IMG/VR virus record: IMGVR_UViG_3300013233_000325
Location: 1 to 52,102 of that record
Strand: one strand, 5' to 3'
Source of the DNA: a virus
DNA: 52,102 bases
Positions 6,731 through 36,875 of the stretch are shown in pieces. Below the pieces are notes generated by a model. The model ran no database searches. It saw nothing but the letters and a program-made list of their open reading frames with translations, and was not told where the DNA came from. The translations under genes were made by a program, and so were the position numbers. Position 1 is the first letter of the stretch, and each line of letters starts with the position of its first letter.

Positions 6731-7839
6731 GCGATCTCCACCATGTCTTCCATCTTGGGACCGGTACCTAGCAGGGAGACTTTCGGGGGTCGGCCCCACG
6801 CGTCTATGCCACACCCGTGAATTTCTGTAACAAACGACTTGGCACTCGACGACAGAAGGCTCTGAGATCGGACCGCATAATTGCTTTTATGAATGTAGTT
6901 CACAAAATTGACGAAAAGATCCGTGGGGGCGCACACGCGCAGGAACTTTTCGTATTGCATCCACGACCAGGAGAAGATTCGCCGTTGACGCTTGGTCACG
7001 GTGGTGAGTTCAGGGCGCAGGGTCTGACCCATGAGGTCTGACAGTTCATCCCACTCGTATTCCACTTGGTCTCTGTAGTAAGGACCGGAGTCCCCAGTTT
7101 TCACTCCCGCATCGTCGTAGATGTGGCCCACTCGAATCGGGAACGCACGGAGTGATCCCCACACGCGACCGAGACAATGAGGCGGAAGACCCAGGTTGTT
7201 GAGAGCCGATGCCGTAGTGACGTCTCGACTCGTAACGTAAGGGTACGAATGCCCGTGGTTCAGCGACAGGTCGAATCCCTGTGCTGTCTCCGCGAGAACC
7301 GTACCACCGCCACGCAGGGTAGACGCCAGATAGGCCGTCGTGTCCTGGATGAACGGTTTGAGTTCTGGAATGTCCTTAGCAGTCGGGGCTCTGCGCATTA
7401 CTTTACGCACCAGGGCAGCACCAACTCCTTTCTGTGTTGACCCGATGAATCCGGTACCCTTGAGTTCCGATCGCTCCGCGAGAGCATCGTCCTCAGTGAT
7501 GATTCCGGCCATAGGGTGGATTGCCAGTCGATCCGCGACTCCGTACTTATCGAGTTCGTCGATTTCCTGGAGTAGCTTTTCGACCGTGATTCCTGCACTC
7601 GCACCGATTATCACCATGGCATCCAGGTTGACAACCGAACACGGCAGGTGGTGGAGCACGTGGGAAGTGTCATCCTCCAAAACGAACGTGTGACCGGCAT
7701 TGGAGTTGAAATCAGCCGTGACGGCTGCTAACTCTTCCCGGTCACCCAGGTACGCCGCGAGCTTTCCTTTGCCCGTGGAGCCCCATTGTCCGTCAAGAAC
7801 GATGTTGCACTTCCCCTTATCGAGGAAGCGGTTGGTCAT
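6727..7839 (-). CDS. purZ: PurZ-type adenylosuccinate synthetase homologue
   Basis: 370 aa, shorter than bacterial PurA (about 430). The P-loop reads GQWGSTGKGK (residues 17-26), where PurA has WGDEGKGK. The catalytic Asp is therefore Ser21, the substitution reported for PurZ enzymes that join Asp to dGMP, giving N6-succino-2-amino-dAMP on the way to 2-aminoadenine (Z). NAGHT (His50) and GTQKGVGAA are conserved. The product would be processed by host PurB. It is overlapped by ATGA on both sides, downstream of SSB and upstream of the MazZ fusion. A PurA acting on IMP is unlikely because the base Asp is missing. Confidence 0.92.
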   Translation of the reverse strand: MTNRFLDKGKCNIVLDGQWGSTGKGKLAAYLGDREELAAVTADFNSNAGHTFVLEDDTSHVLHHLPCSVVNLDAMVIIGASAGITVEKLLQEIDELDKYGVADRLAIHPMAGIITEDDALAERSELKGTGFIGSTQKGVGAALVRKVMRRAPTAKDIPELKPFIQDTTAYLASTLRGGGTVLAETAQGFDLSLNHGHSYPYVTSRDVTTASALNNLGLPPHCLGRVWGSLRAFPIRVGHIYDDAGVKTGDSGPYYRDQVEYEWDELSDLMGQTLRPELTTVTKRQRRIFSWSWMQYEKFLRVCAPTDLFVNFVNYIHKSNYAVRSQSLLSSSAKSFVTEIHGCGIDAWGRPPKVSLLGTGPKMEDMVEIA

Positions 7840-8936
7840 TTTTTGCCTTTTTTACCCTTCTTGCTGGACTTCTTCTTTGAAGTCTTCTTCTTACTGGACT
7901 TGCCCTTTTTGGCCTTGTTGTAAGCCTCCAGAGCTTTAGGAGTCAGAGTAACGAAGTCGTCGCGGCCCATGGTGTAGGTCTCACCATCGAGTTCCGCCTT
8001 GACATCGTATTCCCCGTCCTCGTACCCGGTGATTTCGCCGTGGGACTTGCCTTCGTCGAGTTCGAACTTGCAGATCGTACCGTTGGGCTCGACGTCCTCC
8101 TCCTCCTCTTCTTCGTCGTCCTCGGGCTCTTCTTCCTCTTCCTCTTCCTCTTCCTCTTCTTCCTCGTCGTCGGACTCCTCTTCCTCCTCTTCCTCCTCTT
8201 CTTCCTCGTCATCCTCGGGGGCGTCGGATTCCTCTTCTTCCTCTTCTTCCTCTTCTGACTCCTCTTTATCGGAATCGTCCTTCTTGTGACCGGCTTCCAA
8301 GTAGTCGGCGTCGAACAGATCTTTCAGGTCCTCGGCCACGTCTTCTTCGAGTTCCGGCGACTTTTTCGCAGTCCGCACAACCATCTTGTACATGTTGGAC
8401 GGTTCCAACTTGCTGTTGCGGGTCACGATGATGTCACACCCTTTGCACCCGAAGATGTCTTCGGACTCGTACTCACCAGACGTGAGGAGTTCGAGGATCT
8501 TCGCAAAGAGGGACTGGGGCATGGTCAGGACTTGCATCCCGCCTTCCAGGTTCTTCATGTCGATCGCGTTGACGTGGAACTGACGCGTGACTTTCATCCG
8601 CTTGCCAGCCGACTGTTCCGACTTCTTGCTGGAACCCATAAGTTCCGACGCCTCAGCACACGTTTTGCACTTCTTGCCTGAGCAAGGACGAGGCGGTTCA
8701 TTCGGAACGAAGTGCTGCAGGGTCTCCCGGTGGATTTCCTCCTGTGTGCTTCCGACCTTCGGTGCGCCAGGAGCGCCCTTGATGTAGAAGCCTTTGCCGT
8801 AGTCGCCTTTGGTGACTTTGTGATTGAACGTGAAAACCCGAATGTCGGTCCTCCCGTCCTTGAGTTTCAGGAACCCGCCACCGCGAGTTTCGATGTTGTC
8901 CTGAGTTGCTTTGTATCGGTCTAAATTGAGAGCCAT
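7836..8936 (-). CDS. gp32-like single-stranded DNA-binding protein with acidic and Lys-rich tails
   Basis: 366 aa. The N-terminal 190 residues resemble T4 gp32-type SSBs: a GGGFLKLKDGRTDIRVF start, an H plus CSGKKCKTC cluster for zinc (about 75-90), and basic/aromatic stretches. A very long Glu/Asp tract (about residues 225-285) follows, then a small SH3/KOW-like unit (GEITGYEDGEYDVKAELDG), then a Lys/Ser tail. Acidic SSB tails recruit replication proteins; the acid-barrel-Lys arrangement here is unusual. The coding strand is an almost pure purine run over the acidic tract. Confidence 0.85.
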   Translation of the reverse strand: MALNLDRYKATQDNIETRGGGFLKLKDGRTDIRVFTFNHKVTKGDYGKGFYIKGAPGAPKVGSTQEEIHRETLQHFVPNEPPRPCSGKKCKTCAEASELMGSSKKSEQSAGKRMKVTRQFHVNAIDMKNLEGGMQVLTMPQSLFAKILELLTSGEYESEDIFGCKGCDIIVTRNSKLEPSNMYKMVVRTAKKSPELEEDVAEDLKDLFDADYLEAGHKKDDSDKEESEEEEEEEEESDAPEDDEEEEEEEEEEESDDEEEEEEEEEEEEEPEDDEEEEEEDVEPNGTICKFELDEGKSHGEITGYEDGEYDVKAELDGETYTMGRDDFVTLTPKALEAYNKAKKGKSSKKKTSKKKSSKKGKKGKK

Positions 8937-25643: not shown

Positions 25644-25889
25644 ATGGCTGGCGGAAAATCCTGTGTTACTATCGAACTTTTCAAAGACCTCGGTGATGAA
25701 GTAGACGTTATTCGCGTCAACAACGACAACGAGGCCAAACGCCCTTGGCTCGAAGCTGGCTACTCGGAAGAGAAGCCGGAAGGAATCGAGGAAGAAGAGG
25801 AGGGGGAAGAGTCCGATGAGGACGAAGAGGGGGAAGAGTCCGAGGAATCCGATGAGGAGGACGAAGAGGAAGAAGAAGACGAAGTGTAA
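25644..25889 (+). CDS. Small protein with extreme acidic tail, 81 aa
   Basis: MAGGKSCVTIELFKDLGDEV, then a Glu/Asp/Ser tail of about 35 residues. It follows the coat terminator. Acidic tails occur on capsid accessory and DNA-mimic proteins; a coat-bound or portal-adjacent role is possible. The tail is the second long poly-acidic stretch in the window (the other is in SSB). Confidence 0.75.
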   Translation: MAGGKSCVTIELFKDLGDEVDVIRVNNDNEAKRPWLEAGYSEEKPEGIEEEEEGEESDEDEEGEESEESDEEDEEEEEDEV

Positions 25890-26279: not shown

Positions 26280-26813
26280 ATGGCTGCTACGTTCGTCGTG
26301 GAGACTGGAGCCGGAATTGCGGGTGCTAACTCGTACGTGTCCGAGGCCGATGCTCTCCAAATCATCGAAAATTTAGAAACTGCGGCGAACGTAACACTGT
26401 GGTCTGGGTACACAGACGATCAAAGAAAAGCTGCGCTGAGGGACGCAACTGCTTTCCAAGATCAACGATTCGGAACGTTGTGGCTTGGAGTTAAATCTAA
26501 CGCTGATAACCCTCTCGATTGGCCGAGGTATGACCTCGAAACGAGGGACGGTTACAGACTCGACGCAAACGAGGTTCCTGAGAAGGTCAAAGCGTGTACG
26601 TCACTCCTGGCGGTCAAATCCGCCGCAGGAACCGACCTCTGGGCCGACCTCACTGCGCCGGTTGGAGGCGTCAAGAGTAAGAAGGTTAAAGCCGGTCCGG
26701 TGATGACTGAAACCGTTTACGCGGGATCAGCCTCCACCCGTCGTTCGTTTCCTCGGGCGATCGCCATGCTCGACGATTTCGTTCTCTCCGGTAGTGGAGT
26801 TCGCAGGTCATGA
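26280..26813 (+). CDS. Head-tail connector, DnaT-like/adaptor family
   Basis: 177 aa. MAATFVVETGAGIAGANSYV, DATAFQDQRFGTLWLGV and the DWPRYDLETRDGYRLDANEV pattern match phage head-tail adaptor proteins often labelled DnaT-like. They bind under the portal and close the head. Overlaps the next ATG by 4 nt. Confidence 0.8.
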   Translation: MAATFVVETGAGIAGANSYVSEADALQIIENLETAANVTLWSGYTDDQRKAALRDATAFQDQRFGTLWLGVKSNADNPLDWPRYDLETRDGYRLDANEVPEKVKACTSLLAVKSAAGTDLWADLTAPVGGVKSKKVKAGPVMTETVYAGSASTRRSFPRAIAMLDDFVLSGSGVRRS

Positions 26814-27175
26814 CATCACTTGACGACGAACTTCTCCCTGCAGTTCTAGACCTTATTCTAGAAGTCGGCACTGACATCGTGTACGAAGAAGTCACGAAGA
26901 CGCCGGATCCTACGACCGGCACTGTGGCCCTAGGCACTCCGGTCCTCAACACCGAAAAGTCAATTCCTCCGTACGAAACCGAAGAGAAATACTTCGATGG
27001 AGACACGGTTCAAAGAGGATCGTTGATGACCGGTGTGGCCGGTTCGGGTCTGACCTGGACGCCGGTTCTCGGAATGAAGGCGACGCACGGTTCTAACGTG
27101 TACCGAGTGACCAAGGTCACACCCGTCTATTCCGGCGATTCGATCTGTTTGTATCTGATCTTCATGGAAAAGTAA
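26810..27175 (+). CDS. Head closure/neck protein, 121 aa
   Basis: ATG overlapping the connector stop (ATGA). Beta-rich (VGTDIVYEEVTKTPDP, GLTWTPVLGMKATHGSNVYR) with the size of neck or head-closure proteins. Identification is by position between connector and HK97 gp10-like gene plus fold-like pattern. Confidence 0.65.
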   Translation: MTSLDDELLPAVLDLILEVGTDIVYEEVTKTPDPTTGTVALGTPVLNTEKSIPPYETEEKYFDGDTVQRGSLMTGVAGSGLTWTPVLGMKATHGSNVYRVTKVTPVYSGDSICLYLIFMEK

Positions 27176-27176
27176 A

Positions 27177-27647
27177 ATGGCATACGCCAATCTGGGTGCG
27201 CATTTGGCGGATTTTGTTGCCAAGTTGGGTGACGAAGAAAAGAACATAGAAGCAGTTTACAGAGCGACGGCTCTGGACCTCTTTGCTCGGACCGTTTTCC
27301 GTACTCCAGTGGACGAAGCCATTCTAGTTGCCAACTGGAATTTGACTATCGGACAGCCAGACGAAACTGCGACGAACACCCCCATGGACGTGTCCTCGGT
27401 GATCGATGCGGGTCTTGCAGGACTCTCCGGGTTCACCCTTGGAGATCAAATCTGGTTGACAAACCCCTCCCCGTATAGTGCAGTATGGGAGTTCGGGACG
27501 TTCGTCCCACCTGACCCCGGCCCTTCTAAGGACCCGCGCCCCGGTCGTCTAGGAACCATACTGGTTGCTGGAGGATTTTCGACGCAAGCGCCGCAGGGGA
27601 TGCTTGGGGTTTCCATCGAAGAGATCATCGCAAAACTGGGATCCTGA
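27177..27647 (+). CDS. HK97 gp10-like tail-completion/neck protein
   Basis: 156 aa. FVAKLGDEEKNIEAVYRATA, RTVFRTPVDEAILVANWNLT, and SPYSAVWEFGTF-type motif (NPSPYSAVWEFGTFVPP) are characteristic of HK97 gp10-type proteins. It joins tail to head. Its stop and the next ATG are in the same frame separated by two codons, but these are separate genes. Confidence 0.82.
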   Translation: MAYANLGAHLADFVAKLGDEEKNIEAVYRATALDLFARTVFRTPVDEAILVANWNLTIGQPDETATNTPMDVSSVIDAGLAGLSGFTLGDQIWLTNPSPYSAVWEFGTFVPPDPGPSKDPRPGRLGTILVAGGFSTQAPQGMLGVSIEEIIAKLGS

Positions 27648-27650
27648 ACC

Positions 27651-28085
27651 ATGGCCGTAACGACCACATTCTACAACAACTTTTACGAACAAACCCTCAT
27701 CGCAGGGATCGATTGGGACGCTGACACTTTTAAAGTGGCTCTCACCACATCAGCTTACGTGTTGGACATTGATCTCCATGACCACTTCGACAATATTACA
27801 AACGAAGTGACGGGTACGGGTTACACGGCGGGAGGCGACACGGTTACTTCTATTGTGGTGACTCAGGATAACACAAACGACCGGGCTACTCTTGATTTTG
27901 ATGACCCGGAATGGCTCGCCTCGACCATCACCGCAAGAAACGGCATCCTATACAAGGATACCGGCGTGGCTTCGACCTCCCCCCTCGTGTGTGAAATCGA
28001 CTTTGGTGCTGATTTTTCATCGAGTGCAACGCCGTTCCGAATCGAGCTTGATTTGATCGGATTCCTCACTCTCGACCAAGCGTAA
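27651..28085 (+). CDS. Structural protein, 144 aa
   Basis: MAVTTTFYNNFYEQTLIAGI, TFKVALTTSAYVLDIDLHDH and a beta-sandwich-like C-terminus resemble small phage virion decoration/fibre proteins found between neck and tail genes. Exact virion position unknown. Confidence 0.7.
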   Translation: MAVTTTFYNNFYEQTLIAGIDWDADTFKVALTTSAYVLDIDLHDHFDNITNEVTGTGYTAGGDTVTSIVVTQDNTNDRATLDFDDPEWLASTITARNGILYKDTGVASTSPLVCEIDFGADFSSSATPFRIELDLIGFLTLDQA

Positions 28086-28091
28086 CGGCTA

Positions 28092-31000
28092 GTGGGTCAA
28101 AGAGTCCTTAGAGGCTTAGGATCTGTGCAAGGTTTGGTCTCTGGCACTGCTGGGGTCACGACTCAGGATTGGACTGTGCCTGCGTTTAATGACAAAGACA
28201 CGTCTGGGATCAACAACCATCCCAAATTTGTAATGTGTTGGGTCACCACAGATGCGGACACAGCAGGGGACCCGGAAGCCGCTTTTGCAGTTGGACTATC
28301 CGACATGAATGTCCAGTTCACCGAAGGTGTGTGGCAAGCATCTGGAAGCGCGAGTATTGACTCTGTTCGATACGCGCACGGTGGACGGCTGTTAGAGATA
28401 AAGCGGTCTTCTGGGTCTCTATGGTTCTCGGTGTCCCTAGACTCCACAATATCGAACGGAATCCGAGTTACTTACGAGGTAATTCCGACTTACAGGTTTA
28501 CGATTAATTTCCTGTTTTTAGGAGGGGAAGGTTTTGAGTCGTTCGCAGGATTCAACACCACGGGGGGTACAGCGGGAGACGAGTCAAACATTACGGGTCC
28601 GGCGTTCGAACCAAATATCGTTCTCACGTTGTCTAACGGTCTTGCTCTCAACTCGACGGCTCAAATTTCTTCTGCATACGCCAATTTCAGTCTAGGAATG
28701 GCCGTTTGGGACGGGTCGACCTTAATTAGGCGATCCGACACGATTGCACAGCAGTCTAGTCAAACGTTGTCTTACCGATATCACTCTAGACGAGCGGACG
28801 ATATGGGACAGTTTTGGATTCCAAAAACGACGTCCGGAGCTTCATTGATTTCTCGTTATGATATTAAAGACTTCGATGCAGACGGTTTCACCCTTGAGAC
28901 AATCACAATCAATCGGGCTTCTGTTGTTGGGTGGGTAGCCCTCAATTTGCCTCCCTCGTGTCAAGCCACGATTGTCGATTTTCTCACTCCCACAACTGCG
29001 ACGAATAAAGATTCACCTTCAGTTGGATTCCGCCCCGGCGTGGTTATTGGGGTGCTGAATGAAATGCGATCTAACTTATTAAGCTCGCACATAGATCCAC
29101 ACGCTTCGTATTTTGGTCTGTCAGCAGCAACAGCAGCCTTCGACGCGGTTGCTCTTGTGGAAAAAACGGCCAACTATTATGACGAAGACGCCGCTACAAC
29201 GATGAACGCAGCGGCAGAAGCCACTAGCAACTTCGTTGACATGTATGATGGGACGTCCTTTGTTACCACAGGTACAATCGATCTCGATTTTGATGATAAG
29301 TTCAACATTGATTTTTCTGCTGTTCTGAATTCGAACGTTGAACTTTACCATTGTCTAGTAATCATGGATTACGCGGTGGTAATTGATTCAGACGTCGAAA
29401 ATGTCGTTTTCAGTAGAAACGCAGAACCCGGAGTGTCCACTCCCCCTCCTCCTTTGACTTCTAAAATTCTGGAAGTTACGGGACTCGCAGCTATACCTAT
29501 TTCCCCCATACCCGCTGGACTTGAAACTTTAAAAATTAATGAACAAAACCCGGACGTAGTGTCTGCGATTTTGGTATCTGTTGCGGGGCTGTCCGTTACC
29601 AGCCTTGCAGTAGACGTGCCAGCCCTGGTGGCACACTCGGTGGTCGGGTTGAACGTTACGGAAATTGGCGTTCTACTGGAAACCCCGGTCGTCGCACCGT
29701 TGTCGTCTTTGAACATGAATGACATTGCACTTGTCGTTCTATCTCCGGTAGAGCAGTCTACTGCGAGTATTCAAATCACGGCGCTACAAGCGATCCCGAC
29801 GACACCTATTTTGGCTCCCTTGTCATCTGCCTTGTTGACCATGGTAGAGCCTGACGTGGTGTTGCCGGTACTGGTGGGAATCTCAGTATTGGAGTTGGAG
29901 CCTCTAATACCGGTGATTCCCACCTTGATCGCACCGGGGTTAATCAGTGCTCAATTCAATTCTTTGACTGTGCTAATTCCAGTCACGGTTTTACCCGGTG
30001 TCGCAAGTCTACAGTTCACAACTATAGAACCGGACCCCCTTACCCCGGTACTGATCGGATTGTCTCAGATTGAGATTACTGACCAGTCCTTGAGTGCACT
30101 TCTTCCCGTGCCGTTTCCCTTGTCTTCCCTGGCCCTCACACCCCTTGGGGTCTTCCCAGTAGCCCCTATCCCTTCCGGAGTCCAGGGACTGCAACTCGTA
30201 GCCCAAGGAACATCCCCCGTTGCTCCGGTGTCGGCTCCGGTCGTAGTAGTGGAATTCAGCCCCCAAGTTCCTGAGGTTCTGTCGTCTTTGTCCTTGGCTG
30301 TTCAATCACTCAAAGCAACTGCACTTGCAGTCACCGTTGACGCTTTTGTTGGGAACACTCCTGGTTGTTATCGCAAGATACGCAGTGCAGTGATTGGTCG
30401 ATTCTTCACTTTAGTTGAAGACATGTTCTCTTATGAGGTCGTTCACGACAACCAACCAGATGAGGCCAACAAAGATTCAGTTTGGGCTCGAACTCGGGTG
30501 ATCTTCGACGGGGCGAGCCATGTGATGACCGGAGATGGGCAAGTCTTCCGGAAGTTCGGACGTCTTGAAGTCTCCTGGTTCGTTCCTGTGGAGACGGGGT
30601 GGGACGCCGCATTGACAGCGGCAGACCGGCTCTCTGATGCCTTCCGTGCCACCAAATCGGTTGACATGCTGTACCGGACCCCCCGCCTCTATAAGCGCGG
30701 ACGGGCGGGTTTGTGGTGGCAGATTGACGTACACATTCCGTTCCTGTCCGATGACAGTACGACTCTGACCCCGATGACTTCGGGATCCGCTATGAGCTTT
30801 AACGCCCTCCACGACGCCATTAACACTCGATTCAAGGTCGAGGTCGCAGACGCGGAGTCAGTTTACACCGTTTACGACAACTTCCCGGATGCGAAAACTG
30901 ACGACACTGAGTTCGTCCGTTTCACGGTTCTTCCAGGGGAGTCAATCCAGGTCACGACCGGATCACCAGGGAATAACCGGTTCCGGACGGCAGGCATCGC

Positions 31001-31199
31001 AGTCGCGTCGGTTTACAACAAGGTTGAAACCGGCGATAATAGTAATCTTGTTCTCATCGACAAGATTAACGAAGCATTCCGCGCTGTAACGGCTGGCGGA
31101 GTGACATACAGAACCCCTAGAGTGATCACCGTTGGTCGCTTGGGTAATTGGTACCAAACCAATATCGAAATCCCGTTCTACGCGGACACTCTGGAGTAA
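28092..31199 (+). CDS. Giant fusion: virion appendage, hydrophobic Pro repeats, two tail-terminator domains
   Basis: GTG start at 28092, 1035 aa. Residues about 1-450 are a beta-rich appendage-like region (HPKFVMCWVTTDADTAGD). Residues about 456-750 contain some 13 units of 20-22 residues with a loose pattern P-V/I-x-PL-x-SL-x-L, very rich in Val, Leu, Ser and Pro. Then come two related tail-terminator-type domains (about 751-895 and 900-1035), each with a (Y/H)DNxPD and a YRTPR...GRxGxWxQ motif. Directly upstream of the tail-tube gene, where a single-domain tail terminator normally sits. It probably caps the tail and carries an external arm. No stop codon or start signal separates the parts. 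Confidence 0.75.
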   Translation: MGQRVLRGLGSVQGLVSGTAGVTTQDWTVPAFNDKDTSGINNHPKFVMCWVTTDADTAGDPEAAFAVGLSDMNVQFTEGVWQASGSASIDSVRYAHGGRLLEIKRSSGSLWFSVSLDSTISNGIRVTYEVIPTYRFTINFLFLGGEGFESFAGFNTTGGTAGDESNITGPAFEPNIVLTLSNGLALNSTAQISSAYANFSLGMAVWDGSTLIRRSDTIAQQSSQTLSYRYHSRRADDMGQFWIPKTTSGASLISRYDIKDFDADGFTLETITINRASVVGWVALNLPPSCQATIVDFLTPTTATNKDSPSVGFRPGVVIGVLNEMRSNLLSSHIDPHASYFGLSAATAAFDAVALVEKTANYYDEDAATTMNAAAEATSNFVDMYDGTSFVTTGTIDLDFDDKFNIDFSAVLNSNVELYHCLVIMDYAVVIDSDVENVVFSRNAEPGVSTPPPPLTSKILEVTGLAAIPISPIPAGLETLKINEQNPDVVSAILVSVAGLSVTSLAVDVPALVAHSVVGLNVTEIGVLLETPVVAPLSSLNMNDIALVVLSPVEQSTASIQITALQAIPTTPILAPLSSALLTMVEPDVVLPVLVGISVLELEPLIPVIPTLIAPGLISAQFNSLTVLIPVTVLPGVASLQFTTIEPDPLTPVLIGLSQIEITDQSLSALLPVPFPLSSLALTPLGVFPVAPIPSGVQGLQLVAQGTSPVAPVSAPVVVVEFSPQVPEVLSSLSLAVQSLKATALAVTVDAFVGNTPGCYRKIRSAVIGRFFTLVEDMFSYEVVHDNQPDEANKDSVWARTRVIFDGASHVMTGDGQVFRKFGRLEVSWFVPVETGWDAALTAADRLSDAFRATKSVDMLYRTPRLYKRGRAGLWWQIDVHIPFLSDDSTTLTPMTSGSAMSFNALHDAINTRFKVEVADAESVYTVYDNFPDAKTDDTEFVRFTVLPGESIQVTTGSPGNNRFRTAGIAVASVYNKVETGDNSNLVLIDKINEAFRAVTAGGVTYRTPRVITVGRLGNWYQTNIEIPFYADTLE

Positions 31200-31205
31200 G
31201 ATCCA

Positions 31206-32357
31206 ATGTCAGACACAAACCTACTCCGTTTGGCGTACGCGAAGGAAACAACCTTCAAAACGTCCCCCACTGGTTCTTATCAGATCGTCCGGACAACCGG
31301 CGAATCCTTGCGTATGGACGCGGGTTTCACCCGGTCAGCGGAGATCCGAGCGGACCGTCAGATTGCAGATGTTGTACGAAACTCATTCGTCGGCGCTGGT
31401 GATCTGAACATTGAACTCCCCTACGGAGCGCACGATGATCTGTTCGAGTACGCTTTGCAATCCGCAGGGTGGAGCACGGAAGATGATGACCTCTCTGGTG
31501 TTAATACCACGACGGTAAACGGGTCAAACGTTTACACGATCGACGCTGGTGCATGGAGCACGACTCCTTCAGTTGGCGATTGGGTGGAAATCCGTGGTGA
31601 CGCGGTTGCAGCCAACAACGGCTACAAGAGAGTCACGGCGGCAACTTCCACGACCATCACGGTCGGCGGTGCTGCCACGTCAGTTTCCTCCGCTCAGGAT
31701 TTGACCATCGATCTCGGTGAATACACCACGAATGGTGTCACCGCCTCGTTCGTCACGTTTGAGAAGCAGTTCACGGATCTGTCCAGCAAATACACCTTGC
31801 TGAAGGGTTTCCAACCCAACGGCCTCAACCTCGCCGTTGCGACTGGAGCTATCATGACGGGATCAGTCCCGTTCATTGGTGGTACGCAAACGATGACTAC
31901 TGCGGACATCGGTTCGGGTTACGTGGCGGTGAACAGCAATGAGGTCATGAACGCTATTGACCACGTGTTGGCCATCCAAGAAGCCGGTGCCGATTACGGC
32001 GTTACAAACTTCTCATTCTCGATGGGTAACAACCTTCGAGCGCGTGAACAAGTCGCGACCCTGGGTCCGATCTCGATTGGCTCCGGCGCGGTGAACCTCA
32101 CAGGCACCAACCAAGCGTACTATGCCACCGAAGCAGTGATGAACAAGTTCTTGGATGGAACCGTTTCGTCGAACGCTTTCCTGGTGGAAGACGCCTCTGG
32201 AAACGCCTACGTCTTCGACTTCCCTCGACTCCGGTACACGTCCGGACAAGTGGTCGCGGGGGGCCAGAACGGGGACATCATTGCTGATATGGCGTGGGAA
32301 GCCTACCGAGACCCGCTCTCCGGTAGCACTATGCGGATCACCCGCTTCGCCGCGTAA
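31206..32357 (+). CDS. Major tail tube protein
   Basis: 383 aa. MSDTNLLRLAYAKETTFKTS and RSAEIRADRQIADVVRNSFV are typical of siphovirus tail tube proteins. An inserted Ig/beta module (TTITVGGAATSVSSAQDLTI) lies in the middle, and a second domain closes the tube fold (EAYRDPLSGSTMRITRF). It polymerises around the tape measure. Confidence 0.9.
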   Translation: MSDTNLLRLAYAKETTFKTSPTGSYQIVRTTGESLRMDAGFTRSAEIRADRQIADVVRNSFVGAGDLNIELPYGAHDDLFEYALQSAGWSTEDDDLSGVNTTTVNGSNVYTIDAGAWSTTPSVGDWVEIRGDAVAANNGYKRVTAATSTTITVGGAATSVSSAQDLTIDLGEYTTNGVTASFVTFEKQFTDLSSKYTLLKGFQPNGLNLAVATGAIMTGSVPFIGGTQTMTTADIGSGYVAVNSNEVMNAIDHVLAIQEAGADYGVTNFSFSMGNNLRAREQVATLGPISIGSGAVNLTGTNQAYYATEAVMNKFLDGTVSSNAFLVEDASGNAYVFDFPRLRYTSGQVVAGGQNGDIIADMAWEAYRDPLSGSTMRITRFAA

Positions 32358-33210: not shown

Positions 33211-35901
33211 ATGGTTAACATTCGCACACTCAAGCTTCTGATCGACACCGCAACTGCGCGGACGTCGTTGGACCAGCTTAAAGTAGCACAAAAGTCTTAT
33301 GCTGCGTCCACCGGGGACGCGAATAGGGACAATAAGAAGCTAGATAAGTCCATGAAGGGTGTTGGGAACACCGCAAGGGAGCTTCGACGTGCGTTGATCG
33401 GAGTCTTTGCGGGTGTCTCTGCTGGACAGGCTATCCGGTCGTCCATTTCCCTCATCTCGGAATACGAAAAGCAACTCGTAATCCTGGGTGGCGTGTCCCG
33501 AGCTTCGGCGAAGGATCAGTTACTGCTGGCGGCTGCCAACCGAGAACTGGGAGCCACAACCCTTTTCACAGCTTCGCAAGCTGCTGAGGCACAGGTTCTT
33601 CTTGCGCGATCCGGTTTGGACACGCAAGCAATTCTCGAAAATACAGCCCCCATCCTCGATTTGGCGGCTGCTGCCAACCTTGATCTGGCGCGTGCTGCGG
33701 CGATCGCAACGGAGTCTCAAAAGCAATTCGGGTTCGAGAATGATGAACTCGCTGACGCTCTAAACGATCTGTTCGTTATTTCGAACAGAACGGCTCCCAC
33801 GGTTGATCAGCTTGCTGCCGCTATGACCGACGCCGGTATTGCCGGTGCCCAGTTCGGTGAGTCGGTTGGCGATGTTGCTGCCCTGGTCGGTGTCCTGATT
33901 GATCGTGGTTTCAAAGCAGAACGAGCGGGCGTCGCTGTCCGACAGACGTTCTTGCAGTTGGCTAATCCGTCTTCTGCAGCCCTCAAAGCTCTCAAATCCT
34001 TGAAAATCGGGTTCGATGAGGTTAACCCGGAAGTTAGAACAGCCGAGGAAATCTGGAACCGATTCGCAAAGGCTGAACTCAGTGCAGGTGTTGCGTCGCA
34101 GATCTTCGGTGACCGTGCCGCTCTGGCTGCGGTCGTCCTGGCGGGCAACACAGAGAAACTCGATGAACTGCGCTTAGCGACACGCGGTAACGCGGACGAG
34201 TTGACCAATCTCGCTCGTGCCATGGAGCAAACGCTCTCTGGCGAGACGCGAGCGCTCATCTCCGCATTCCAGGAACTCATCCTGCAGATGGGTGATAACA
34301 CTGGTGGTGGATTAACCTCCGCCGTTGTCACTCTGCGTGACGCGTTGCGATTCTTCGCTGGTGTGGAGAAGGACGTTTCCGAGGAAGGCAAGATCTTGGC
34401 CGGTGTAATCGGCGGGATTTTGACTACGGCCACCATCGCATTCACCGCTGCTCTGCTCAAAATGACCGTGGTGGCGTTAGCCAACCCGTTTGGTTTGTTG
34501 GCCGCAAGTATGGGGCTCCTGGTCGGTGCGACTATCAAATACCGGAAGTCCTTGGTTGAAGTCGCGGGCGAGACGGTCCAAGTCGGTGACATCACCGAGG
34601 CTGCATTCGAGTTCATGGGCGACCAGGGGGAAGTCTTCTTCAAAACGATGGAAGTCTTCTGGTCTCAGTTCGCCGGAAACGCAGAATTGGCGTGGATTGC
34701 CATTTCAGGTGTGTCACGGAACACGATCGATAACATCGTACTGAACGCCATTTCAGCCAGGGCCCTCATTCCGGAAATCCTTGGCGGTCTCAGTGACAAC
34801 GAGGCTTCCGGTGCTATTTTGGACATTGGACGTCGAAGTTTCGATGATGCAAAACTTCGTGAGCAACGATTCTCTGAAATCACCGAGGGTCAAGCATCCT
34901 CACGTGCTGAACTTGGGTCAGCGAGAGATAGATCCGGTCCTTCATTATTTGACCGGATCAGGTCCACCAAACAGGGCAGGGAATCCGAAGAAGCCAAAGG
35001 CGCTGGCGTCGCGTTCCTGGTCGCCCAACGTGCGGCCAAAGTCGCTGCTCTCGCCTTCGCGGGAATCACACCGCGTACGGACACTCTCGCGGAGTCAACG
35101 GCCAACCTGACCCTCACGATCAACGACAATACCACTGCCTTCGATGTTAGTGATAAGGCTAGAAAGAAAGCCCTTAAAACGATTGATGACATCATTAATG
35201 CAGCGGAGTTCGAAACCAAGGTCGTTGGTCTCTCCAACGATGAACGTCAACGAGAAGTCGACATCCTCGACCTTCGGTCCGCCGCTACTACAGCGGGAAT
35301 TGAAGACGTTGAAAGCCTGATTGAAGCGTACGACAAGCTCACCGAGAAGACGGCTAAACTGAATCAAATCCAAGAGCTTTCCACTGACATTGGTAATGCT
35401 TTTGGAGATTTCACCAACACCGTTTTGAAAGATTTCAGCGACATCGGTGAAGCTTTCGAGAACATGGTGAGGCAACTCATCGACTCCACAATTCAAGCTG
35501 CTGTCATCAAACCTTTCATTGATTTGATCACGGGTTCTGCCAGTGAGGGTACTGGAATCGCTGGTTTCATTGGCAACATCACAGGTGCGAACACGAACAC
35601 GGAATCGGCTCAGGGAAACTTCTTCTCCAGTGGGACACTTAGCCCCATGGCCAGCGGTTCCTTCATCGATCGCACAACCTTCTCGCCTAAGATCGGTGGC
35701 GGGGCGAACGTCCTGGGTGAAGGTGGTGGCGAATTTGTCATGCCTGCCGCCCGTGACTCCCGAGGTCGACTCGGCATCCGTGCCATGGGCGGCAGTTCTG
35801 GTCCCAGCATGACATTCAACATCACCGCGCCGGATGCGAAAACCGGAATTGGCATGAGTGAACGGCAAATGAGAAACCGCTTCCGCAAGGCGCTGCGATA
35901 A
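33211..35901 (+). CDS. Tape measure protein
   Basis: 896 aa, which is short for a tape measure and implies a short tail. Long helical stretches, the TMP-family core (GVAVRQTFLQLANPSSAALK), a hydrophobic region (GGILTTATIAFTAALL) and a C-terminus (MTFNITAPDAKTGIGMSERQ) like lambda-type tape measures. Sets tail length and may form a channel for DNA passage. Confidence 0.9.
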   Translation: MVNIRTLKLLIDTATARTSLDQLKVAQKSYAASTGDANRDNKKLDKSMKGVGNTARELRRALIGVFAGVSAGQAIRSSISLISEYEKQLVILGGVSRASAKDQLLLAAANRELGATTLFTASQAAEAQVLLARSGLDTQAILENTAPILDLAAAANLDLARAAAIATESQKQFGFENDELADALNDLFVISNRTAPTVDQLAAAMTDAGIAGAQFGESVGDVAALVGVLIDRGFKAERAGVAVRQTFLQLANPSSAALKALKSLKIGFDEVNPEVRTAEEIWNRFAKAELSAGVASQIFGDRAALAAVVLAGNTEKLDELRLATRGNADELTNLARAMEQTLSGETRALISAFQELILQMGDNTGGGLTSAVVTLRDALRFFAGVEKDVSEEGKILAGVIGGILTTATIAFTAALLKMTVVALANPFGLLAASMGLLVGATIKYRKSLVEVAGETVQVGDITEAAFEFMGDQGEVFFKTMEVFWSQFAGNAELAWIAISGVSRNTIDNIVLNAISARALIPEILGGLSDNEASGAILDIGRRSFDDAKLREQRFSEITEGQASSRAELGSARDRSGPSLFDRIRSTKQGRESEEAKGAGVAFLVAQRAAKVAALAFAGITPRTDTLAESTANLTLTINDNTTAFDVSDKARKKALKTIDDIINAAEFETKVVGLSNDERQREVDILDLRSAATTAGIEDVESLIEAYDKLTEKTAKLNQIQELSTDIGNAFGDFTNTVLKDFSDIGEAFENMVRQLIDSTIQAAVIKPFIDLITGSASEGTGIAGFIGNITGANTNTESAQGNFFSSGTLSPMASGSFIDRTTFSPKIGGGANVLGEGGGEFVMPAARDSRGRLGIRAMGGSSGPSMTFNITAPDAKTGIGMSERQMRNRFRKALR

Positions 35902-36875
35902 TGGGCTTTATCAACGATCGTCTACCCACCAACGCGAACTATAGTTCAGCCGGTGGACCTGGGTACAGAACCGCAATCATCGCCACGAGATCCGGCGCAG
36001 AACAACGACTCCAGAGGTCGTCTGCTGCCCGTAGATCGTACGATGCGTCATACACGATCAGGTCAGTACCAGACGCGTATGGTCTAGTCGTGTTCTTCCT
36101 CTCAGTCGAGGGTGCTACTAACACCTTCCGCTGGAAAGATTGGTTGGACTACGCCACCACGTCTGACGGTACAACGCACCATGGACTGGCGGTGACGAGT
36201 TCGGACGTGATCATTGGTGCCGGTGATGGTGCTCAGGTTGTGTTCCAACTGATCAAAAAGTACAGCAACGCGATCAGCACGAAGAGCAGGAACATCATCC
36301 TGCCTATTTTGTCTACTCTTGTTGTTGCAGTTGACTCCGTGGCCCAAACACTTGGTGTAGACTACTCACTGAGTGCAACGACCGGCGAGATCACATTCGT
36401 GGTCGCTCCGCCGAACAACGACTCCATCACAGCCGGGTTCGAATTCGATGTTGCGGTCCGATTCACAGAGGATATCGACGTTGCGTTCTTCTCCTCAATT
36501 GACAGCTTCGATTCGAACTCGATTCCCTCCGTTCCCCTGATCGAGGACCTGTCCCTTACTGCGGACCCGGAACTCACATCAAACGGTGGGTCTTGGGACT
36601 TTGGGGCGACTACAATTGTTCAGGCCATCACCCTGGCTGATGGAAAAGCCGTCAGATTCGCTCCCACAGCGGCTCACAACGTGAATTTCCCGGATGCCAC
36701 GGTGATCGAACCGGGCGGACCTATTTTCTTCATCGTCAATGACGGGTCGCAAACTTTGACTCTCAAATATTCGGACACCACAACTACGATCGGTTCGGTC
36801 GCGGCTGGTGCCCGTGCAGAACTTTGGTTGGTTGAGAACGCGAGTTCTGGTCTCAAAGAGTGGCAACTCAAGTAA
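35901..36875 (+). CDS. DUF2460 distal tail protein with extra C-terminal domain
   Basis: 324 aa. MGFINDRLPTNANYSSAGGP and FRWKDWLDYATTSDG match DUF2460, the distal tail protein of gene transfer agents (about 210 aa). Residues about 230-324 are an added beta domain (VNFPDATVIEPGGPIFFIVN) that resembles the N-terminus of the adjacent kelch protein. ATG overlaps the tape-measure stop. Confidence 0.85.
   Translation: MGFINDRLPTNANYSSAGGPGYRTAIIATRSGAEQRLQRSSAARRSYDASYTIRSVPDAYGLVVFFLSVEGATNTFRWKDWLDYATTSDGTTHHGLAVTSSDVIIGAGDGAQVVFQLIKKYSNAISTKSRNIILPILSTLVVAVDSVAQTLGVDYSLSATTGEITFVVAPPNNDSITAGFEFDVAVRFTEDIDVAFFSSIDSFDSNSIPSVPLIEDLSLTADPELTSNGGSWDFGATTIVQAITLADGKAVRFAPTAAHNVNFPDATVIEPGGPIFFIVNDGSQTLTLKYSDTTTTIGSVAAGARAELWLVENASSGLKEWQLK

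Follow-up and report, generated by a model that had tools for sequence, protein, structure and literature searches.

What kind of protein takes the place of the tail-terminator gene in this phage, and what would it add to the virion? The window analysed here is one virus DNA of 52,102 nucleotides (positions 1 to 52,102 of IMG/VR record IMGVR_UViG_3300013233_000325), in which an earlier note had described a single giant protein joining an appendage, a hydrophobic repeat tract and two terminator domains.

A 1035-residue fusion at the tail-terminator position

Positions 28092-31199 of the plus strand form a single, uninterrupted open frame of 1035 aa, as the earlier note had read it, starting with a GTG at 28092, six bases past the stop of the preceding gene, and stopping at 31199. 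The features of the fusion and its immediate neighbors, with the terminator domains abbreviated as TT1 and TT2, are as follows.

26280..26813, plus strand: head-tail adaptor Ad1 (phrog_477)
26810..27175, plus strand: head closure Hc1 (phrog_161)
27177..27647, plus strand: Neck1 / tail completion protein (phrog_169)
27651..28085, plus strand: phrog_644 protein of 144 aa (PHROG match), candidate bead or fiber subunit
28092..29456, plus strand: N-terminal 455 aa of the fusion, presumed distal payload or adhesin (no family match; low-confidence model)
29469..30308, plus strand: arm or putative rope, 14 tandem hydrophobic repeats of 20 residues (residues 460-739)
up to 30368 (residue 759), plus strand: possible degenerate 15th repeat
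30366..30767, plus strand: TT1, first tail-terminator domain (residues 759-892), the arm-bearing, fast-diverging copy
30792..31199, plus strand: TT2, second tail-terminator domain (residues 901-1035), the conserved copy
31206..32357, plus strand: major tail tube protein, directly downstream of the fusion (PF18906, 5e-28; phrog_290)

By its predicted gene content, the surrounding region is an ordinary siphophage-type morphogenesis cluster, in the order portal, minor head protein, P22-type coat protein, Ad1, Hc1, Neck1, fusion, tail tube, chaperone and tape measure. The fusion thus sits between the neck genes and the tube, with the phrog_644 gene separating it from Neck1. In the cultured relatives by tail tube (Xp15, R5C, Pan1, DoCa5, QDWS359 and PaMx74), a single terminator or structural protein of ∼125-140 aa directly precedes the tube; relatives encode one ∼135-aa terminator at the position of the fusion, which bears out the earlier placement of the protein where a terminator gene is expected. 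Elsewhere in the window, a short acidic repeat protein is encoded between the coat and neck genes (25644-25889), a low-complexity repeat tract lies within a minus-strand ORF (8095-8256 in 7836-8936), and a glycoside hydrolase-like gene (phrog_2913; 35901-36875) directly follows the tape measure; tail-tip genes come next, among them those for a tail assembly protein (phrog_778) and a large tail protein (phrog_4271).

Armed and doubled terminators

The C-terminus of the fusion is matched in two stretches both by PF13554 (Pfam; 7e-8, 33.1 bits against a cut-off of 27) and by phrog_179 (PHROGs; 2e-33). TT1 and TT2 are 36% identical over 119 residues (E 2e-22) and are separated by a linker of only about 10-20 residues. 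Both are modeled by AlphaFold2 with a pLDDT of ∼90 (TT2 ∼95), with the same order of elements, and the TT1 model superposes on the terminators of T1 (9l0e_N; Z 16.1, rmsd 2.0 over 126 residues) and lambda (gpU, 3fz2_A; Z 11.7). The claim of two related terminator domains is therefore upheld by both profiles, by the kinship of the copies and by the modeled fold. TT2 groups with ordinary single terminators in a phylogenetic tree. The phiCD508 neck chain 9gb5_H was considered as a tandem terminator and rejected: it spans both domains but with an rmsd of 13.8, and the corresponding paper reports a sheath-binding terminator instead.

The earlier note had proposed a search for the same fusion in other phages. 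Scans with the coat protein and the tail tube yielded several hundred viral loci, on which an iterated terminator profile identified 288 terminator frames, representing 142 nonredundant loci after clustering at 60% identity. Most terminators in the nonredundant loci are plain, and long N-terminal arms were found on terminators of seven lineages, namely the window and the six listed here.

Manatee Spring phage ctIqW946: 546 aa, two terminators fused
L239/L197: 610 aa, two terminators fused
L222: 587 aa, one terminator, followed directly by a separate plain terminator gene
L210/L201: 1119 and 571 aa, one terminator each, followed directly by a plain terminator gene
L255 (prophage in a Planctomycetota MAG): 562 aa, one terminator; plain terminator gene ∼1.6 kb upstream
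L218: 295 aa, arm on its only terminator

A second, arm-free terminator is kept in six of the seven arm lineages, fused in three (window, Manatee, L239) and separate in three. About four lineages (L167; L415; L172 and relatives; L142 and relatives) have a doubled terminator and no arm, such that the second arm-free copy accompanies 6/7 arm lineages as compared to ∼4/134 arm-free nonredundant loci (Fisher 1.5e-7, kinship ignored). The terminator tree is built on a short alignment and is poorly resolved, and only local statements are drawn from it. In all six pairs the arm-bearing copy has the longer branch (2.48 versus 0.84 in the window). In L222 and L255 the arm-bearing copy is closest in the tree to its own partner, and in L201/L210 the two fall within one supported clade, pairings which indicate that doubling happened more than once.

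A prophage survey with phrog_179, covering Planctomycetota and the class of the L260 genome, returned few terminators, including the known L255 case; two long frames (G396, 703 aa; G333, 442 aa) carry a stop codon inside the matched stretch. Two further architectures were observed among the loci. A terminator at L240:1994-2911 begins with an FN3-like domain and contains a further, inserted domain of ∼65 aa; the latter recurs, repeated, in the adjacent tail tube protein and is a domain common to tube and terminator. A 1029-aa protein with a 42-residue period (L297:3509-6625) lies unfused between terminator and tail tube.

The 20-residue arm and the small genes beside it

The arm of the window protein is built of exact 20-residue, Val/Leu/Pro-rich units, 14 of which run in unbroken register from residue 460 to 739. 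The tandem repeats previously noted are thus real, and their count is slightly higher (14-15, rather than "13 or so"). A lag of 20 is the strongest in the arm's autocorrelation, at 21.6% identity, a level reached by no lag in 2000 shuffles, and the same test detected no periodicity in the N-terminal or terminator parts of the fusion. No DNA tandem array underlies the arm (TRF and a DNA repeat finder); the units repeat at the protein level only, which implies that they are ancient or that selection acts on the structure of the protein. The earlier suggestion of a beta-solenoid arm fared less well: AlphaFold2 returned no confident fold, with a pLDDT mostly under 50 from a 60-row alignment, and the nearly perfect 20-aa repeats of L218 reached a pLDDT of about 30 from a single sequence. 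Such low model confidence is weak evidence against a stalk that folds by itself.

The period is shared across the family. Lag 20 is strongest in six of seven repeat arms, drawn from six lineages, the exception being L201, where its double, 40, ranks first and 20 second. Six of the seven exceed all 1000 shuffles, the short Manatee arm not being significant alone (P 0.1), and the L255 arm showed no repeats. Composition varies from Val/Leu/Pro in the window to Ala/Gly/Arg in L222, Gly/Ser in L002, Asn/Ser/Ile in L201 and Ala/Ser/Thr in L239. One period with unrelated compositions, as read from these sequences, is what a fixed geometric constraint would give. Repeats of this length also occur outside the arms. 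The tail tube protein of L210 (7336-8556) and L201 (3319-4539) ends in one copy of an arm-type 20-residue repeat, and L094 (3237-6787) encodes a pair of repeat proteins, of 831 and 351 aa and with an ESLGITD motif in their 20-aa units, between the head-tail adaptor and a coat protein that is the closest to that of the window.

A protein of ∼145 aa is encoded directly upstream of the arm gene in L002 and L222, where it matches Pfam Gp80, and in the window, where it matches phrog_644; in L239, a Gp80 gene lies three genes upstream. The combination of an arm, a second terminator and a small bead-like upstream gene recurs. Matches to Gp80 (PF23140) were obtained at 3e-21 (L002), 1.5e-16 (L222) and 3e-12 (L239), and a Gp80 profile built from relatives matched 10 chains of PDB 8jou at 1.8e-19. 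The entry is that of the Ralstonia podophage GP4, with gp80 as the bead of its fiber I, a fiber at the tail vertex in which an elongated rope protein reportedly connects gp80 dimers. The resemblance of phrog_644 to Gp80 is collinear and weak (hhalign E 5e-5, 2e-4 and 0.01, with differing alignments and probabilities of 4-68%), and it beats all 14 control families; the phrog_644 profile gave no match to 8jou. Directly upstream of the arm, a bead-type gene is absent from L210, L201, L218 and L255.

Elsewhere, phrog_644 genes normally lie outside the neck cluster, immediately before long adhesin-like proteins, several of which have repeats of 20-24 aa. A search for syntenic neck clusters by way of phrog_644 ended at these adhesin loci instead. 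The family is unannotated; it occurs in phages of Mycobacterium, Gordonia, Caulobacter and others, as a rule right before the gene of a long adhesin-like or tail protein, as with CcrBL9 gp136, which precedes a tail protein of roughly 2,750 aa. Beside Gp80-like genes of unrelated phages, a 20-residue period was found in BcepMigl gp57 (neighbor of gp56; P 0.004) and in mycobacteriophage Hocus gp32 (P below 0.0005), both of which are candidate ropes by sequence; in phiM5_18 the period of 20 was only nominal. Genes with strong 19-24-aa repeats stand at +1 or +2 of bead-type genes in 18/78 cases as compared to 8/388 elsewhere, these loci not being phylogenetically independent, and a strict ±1 neighbor test of the same association was not significant. 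The head-neck clusters of L233 and L247 each hold an unfused repeat gene together with a bead-type gene, both upstream of an ordinary terminator. Searches of the PDB for the rope chain found none with the L218 arm, and no 8jou chain with BcepMigl gp57.

A putative neck fiber, its rivals and its counterparts

The best explanation of these observations, and one that we regard as somewhat probable, is a neck (collar) fiber covalently anchored by the doubled terminator, with the repeats as a rope carrying small bead proteins and the N-terminus as an adhesin. Anchoring of the arm at the neck, as read from the sequence and from where terminators are known to sit, is likely. The appendage that the earlier note had placed there is supported by the two terminator domains, by their position and by fusions of the same kind elsewhere. 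For the rope-and-bead step, we would put the chances slightly below even. TT2 would be the ordinary terminator capping the tail tube and TT1 an extra, diverged copy in the same cap, holding the arm. The fourteen to fifteen 20-residue units of the arm would probably not fold by themselves and would act as a line on which small bead subunits assemble; in the window, the product of the upstream phrog_644 gene is the most likely bead. The result would be a chain-like fiber resembling fiber I of podophage GP4.

The N-terminal 455 residues would form the tip, probably binding the host surface or another glycan. They matched nothing in Pfam, PHROGs, the PDB, phages or IMG/VR, including any recognizable glycan-binding domain, and residues 45-143 are modeled by AlphaFold2 at a pLDDT of only 40-70. 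Scans of viral contigs with the whole protein and with the N-terminus, and of genome contigs with the whole protein, returned no relatives. Among the relatives in arm architecture, the tip of the L210 arm protein has DUF2341 and a sub-threshold GH16 match, and that of L201 a weak F5/8 type C match. These lectin-like tips (weakly so in L201) support a possible surface-binding role in the family, as would, by analogy, the neck carbohydrate-binding modules of lactococcal phages (PMC6669499). Primary receptor binding should not be assumed, since the neck-fiber tip of cyanophage A-1(L) did not bind its host (PMC10966104).

Parts of this reading have rivals. The arm might instead be a self-folding, beta-structured stalk (a solenoid or similar) with a tip, anchored by the terminator and free of any bead partner, the phrog_644 gene being unrelated. 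Its strict register without indels, the alternation of hydrophobic positions and the half-period of 10 in some arms would suit such a stalk, which we nevertheless consider unlikely given the lack of a confident fold for the window arm or the L218 repeats (the latter from single sequence only), the shift in composition from V/L/P to A/G/R to G/S at constant period, and the bead-type genes that immediately precede the arm gene in L002, L222 and, by weak resemblance, the window, with another nearby in L239. The kept second terminator, the constant period and the bead-like upstream gene, none of which the earlier note had picked up, together favor a rope with beads over an arm that folds alone. 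A different doubt is whether the arm stays on the virion, as it could be cut off or serve in assembly only, leaving an ordinary terminator. The arm is not needed for termination and most relatives lack one; repeated arm acquisition with a kept second terminator suggests that it is carried on the virion, and its removal is very unlikely.

The neck fiber favored here allows more than one arrangement of the cap. TT1 and TT2 could alternate in one pseudo-hexamer of three chains, bearing three arms, or six chains could form two stacked terminator rings, bearing six. The three-chain cap, whose chances we place somewhat below even, has a parallel in the T5 tube protein, for which domain duplication with C3/pseudo-C6 rings is known (PMC11784142), and accords with the short linker between the domains. 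Against it stand the far greater divergence of TT1 than TT2, which would fit a cap in which contact with the tube is required of TT2 alone, the separate tube and sheath terminators of T4 and P2 (PMC11784142), and the single armed terminator of L218, which fits a six-arm ring; alignment of the halves of the window's tail tube (hhalign) gave no sequence support for a T5-like duplicated tube. The number of arms would also fall if TT2 were made alone as well, the cap then mixing armed and unarmed subunits with few arms per virion. Internal starts, raised by the earlier note as a source of separate proteins, were found to have no strong ribosome-binding site anywhere in the fusion ORF. One start is less easily dismissed: ATG 30792 encodes Met901, with which TT2 begins, and is preceded at six bases by a GGA, a weak signal of a strength like that at the starts of the neighboring Neck1 and phrog_644 genes, and the unarmed terminator is its own gene in L222, L210 and L201. 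The fused homologues of L002 and L239 lack a Met at this point and, together with the missing strong site, make a separate TT2 quite improbable.

Extended beyond the window, the proposed neck fiber suggests that terminators have been repeatedly duplicated, with one copy becoming the anchor of rope-and-bead fibers, and that each 20-residue repeat docks one bead unit of phrog_644 or Gp80 type, the repeat number acting as a ruler of fiber length. This generalization is tentative, and more doubtful than the rope itself. It would offer a simple rule for neck-fiber attachment in long-tailed phages (the fiber is fused to a spare tail-cap copy) and a suggested function for phrog_644 and for tracts of 20-24-residue repeats, which are common, unannotated and beyond structure prediction. 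If the repeats are bead-docking sites, the sequence itself could tell how long a fiber is and how many beads it carries; if the ruler reading is true, it would account for a large group of phage virion proteins that are repetitive, defy prediction and are encoded beside these small genes. Neck fibers, terminator duplication and bead-chain fibers are each already known. A literature search covering few subscription papers turned up no account of a fusion between terminator and fiber, of a second terminator retained beside an armed copy, or of a 20-residue repeat as the partner of Gp80-type proteins.

Both terminator domains share fold and gene position with the terminators of lambda (gpU), T1, T5 (p142) and GTA; those of lambda, T1 and T5 are single siphophage proteins of ∼130-160 aa, none with a repeat arm. 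The terminator of PVC16, which has a duplicated fold (PMC11784142), is a precedent for the doubling, without a repeat arm. In lactococcal siphophages, the neck passage structure likewise displays carbohydrate-binding modules from the neck, but on a BppU-type ring and coiled-coil stalk separate from the terminator (PMC6669499). Cyanophage A-1(L) has bead-chain neck fibers whose tip contains a carbohydrate-binding module, reminiscent of the fiber proposed for the window, but built from three separate proteins on a pentadecameric neck ring, without terminator fusion (PMC10966104). In LSH1 (gp34-gp36), an adhesin with an unpredictable C-terminal region adjoins a homologue of the GP4 fibril, and its authors wonder about a repetitive motif, with no repeat period reported (PMC13243795); the succession of adhesin domain, unpredictable region and GP4-fibril-like neighbor resembles the window, whereas these genes follow the lysis genes and have no terminator fusion.

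The nearest counterpart is fiber I of GP4. The likenesses are a bead-type gene of ∼140 aa beside a 20-residue-repeat gene (tested in the GP4 relative BcepMigl, gp56/gp57), a fiber at the head-tail junction (a predicted placement in the window) and, in L002, L222 and L239, a Gp80 homologue encoded upstream of the arm. The window differs in that its bead candidate, phrog_644, is only weakly related to Gp80, and in its mode of attachment: the GP4-type rope is a protein of its own on a separate collar ring, whereas the repeat chain of the window is fused to the duplicated terminator of a siphophage-type tail.
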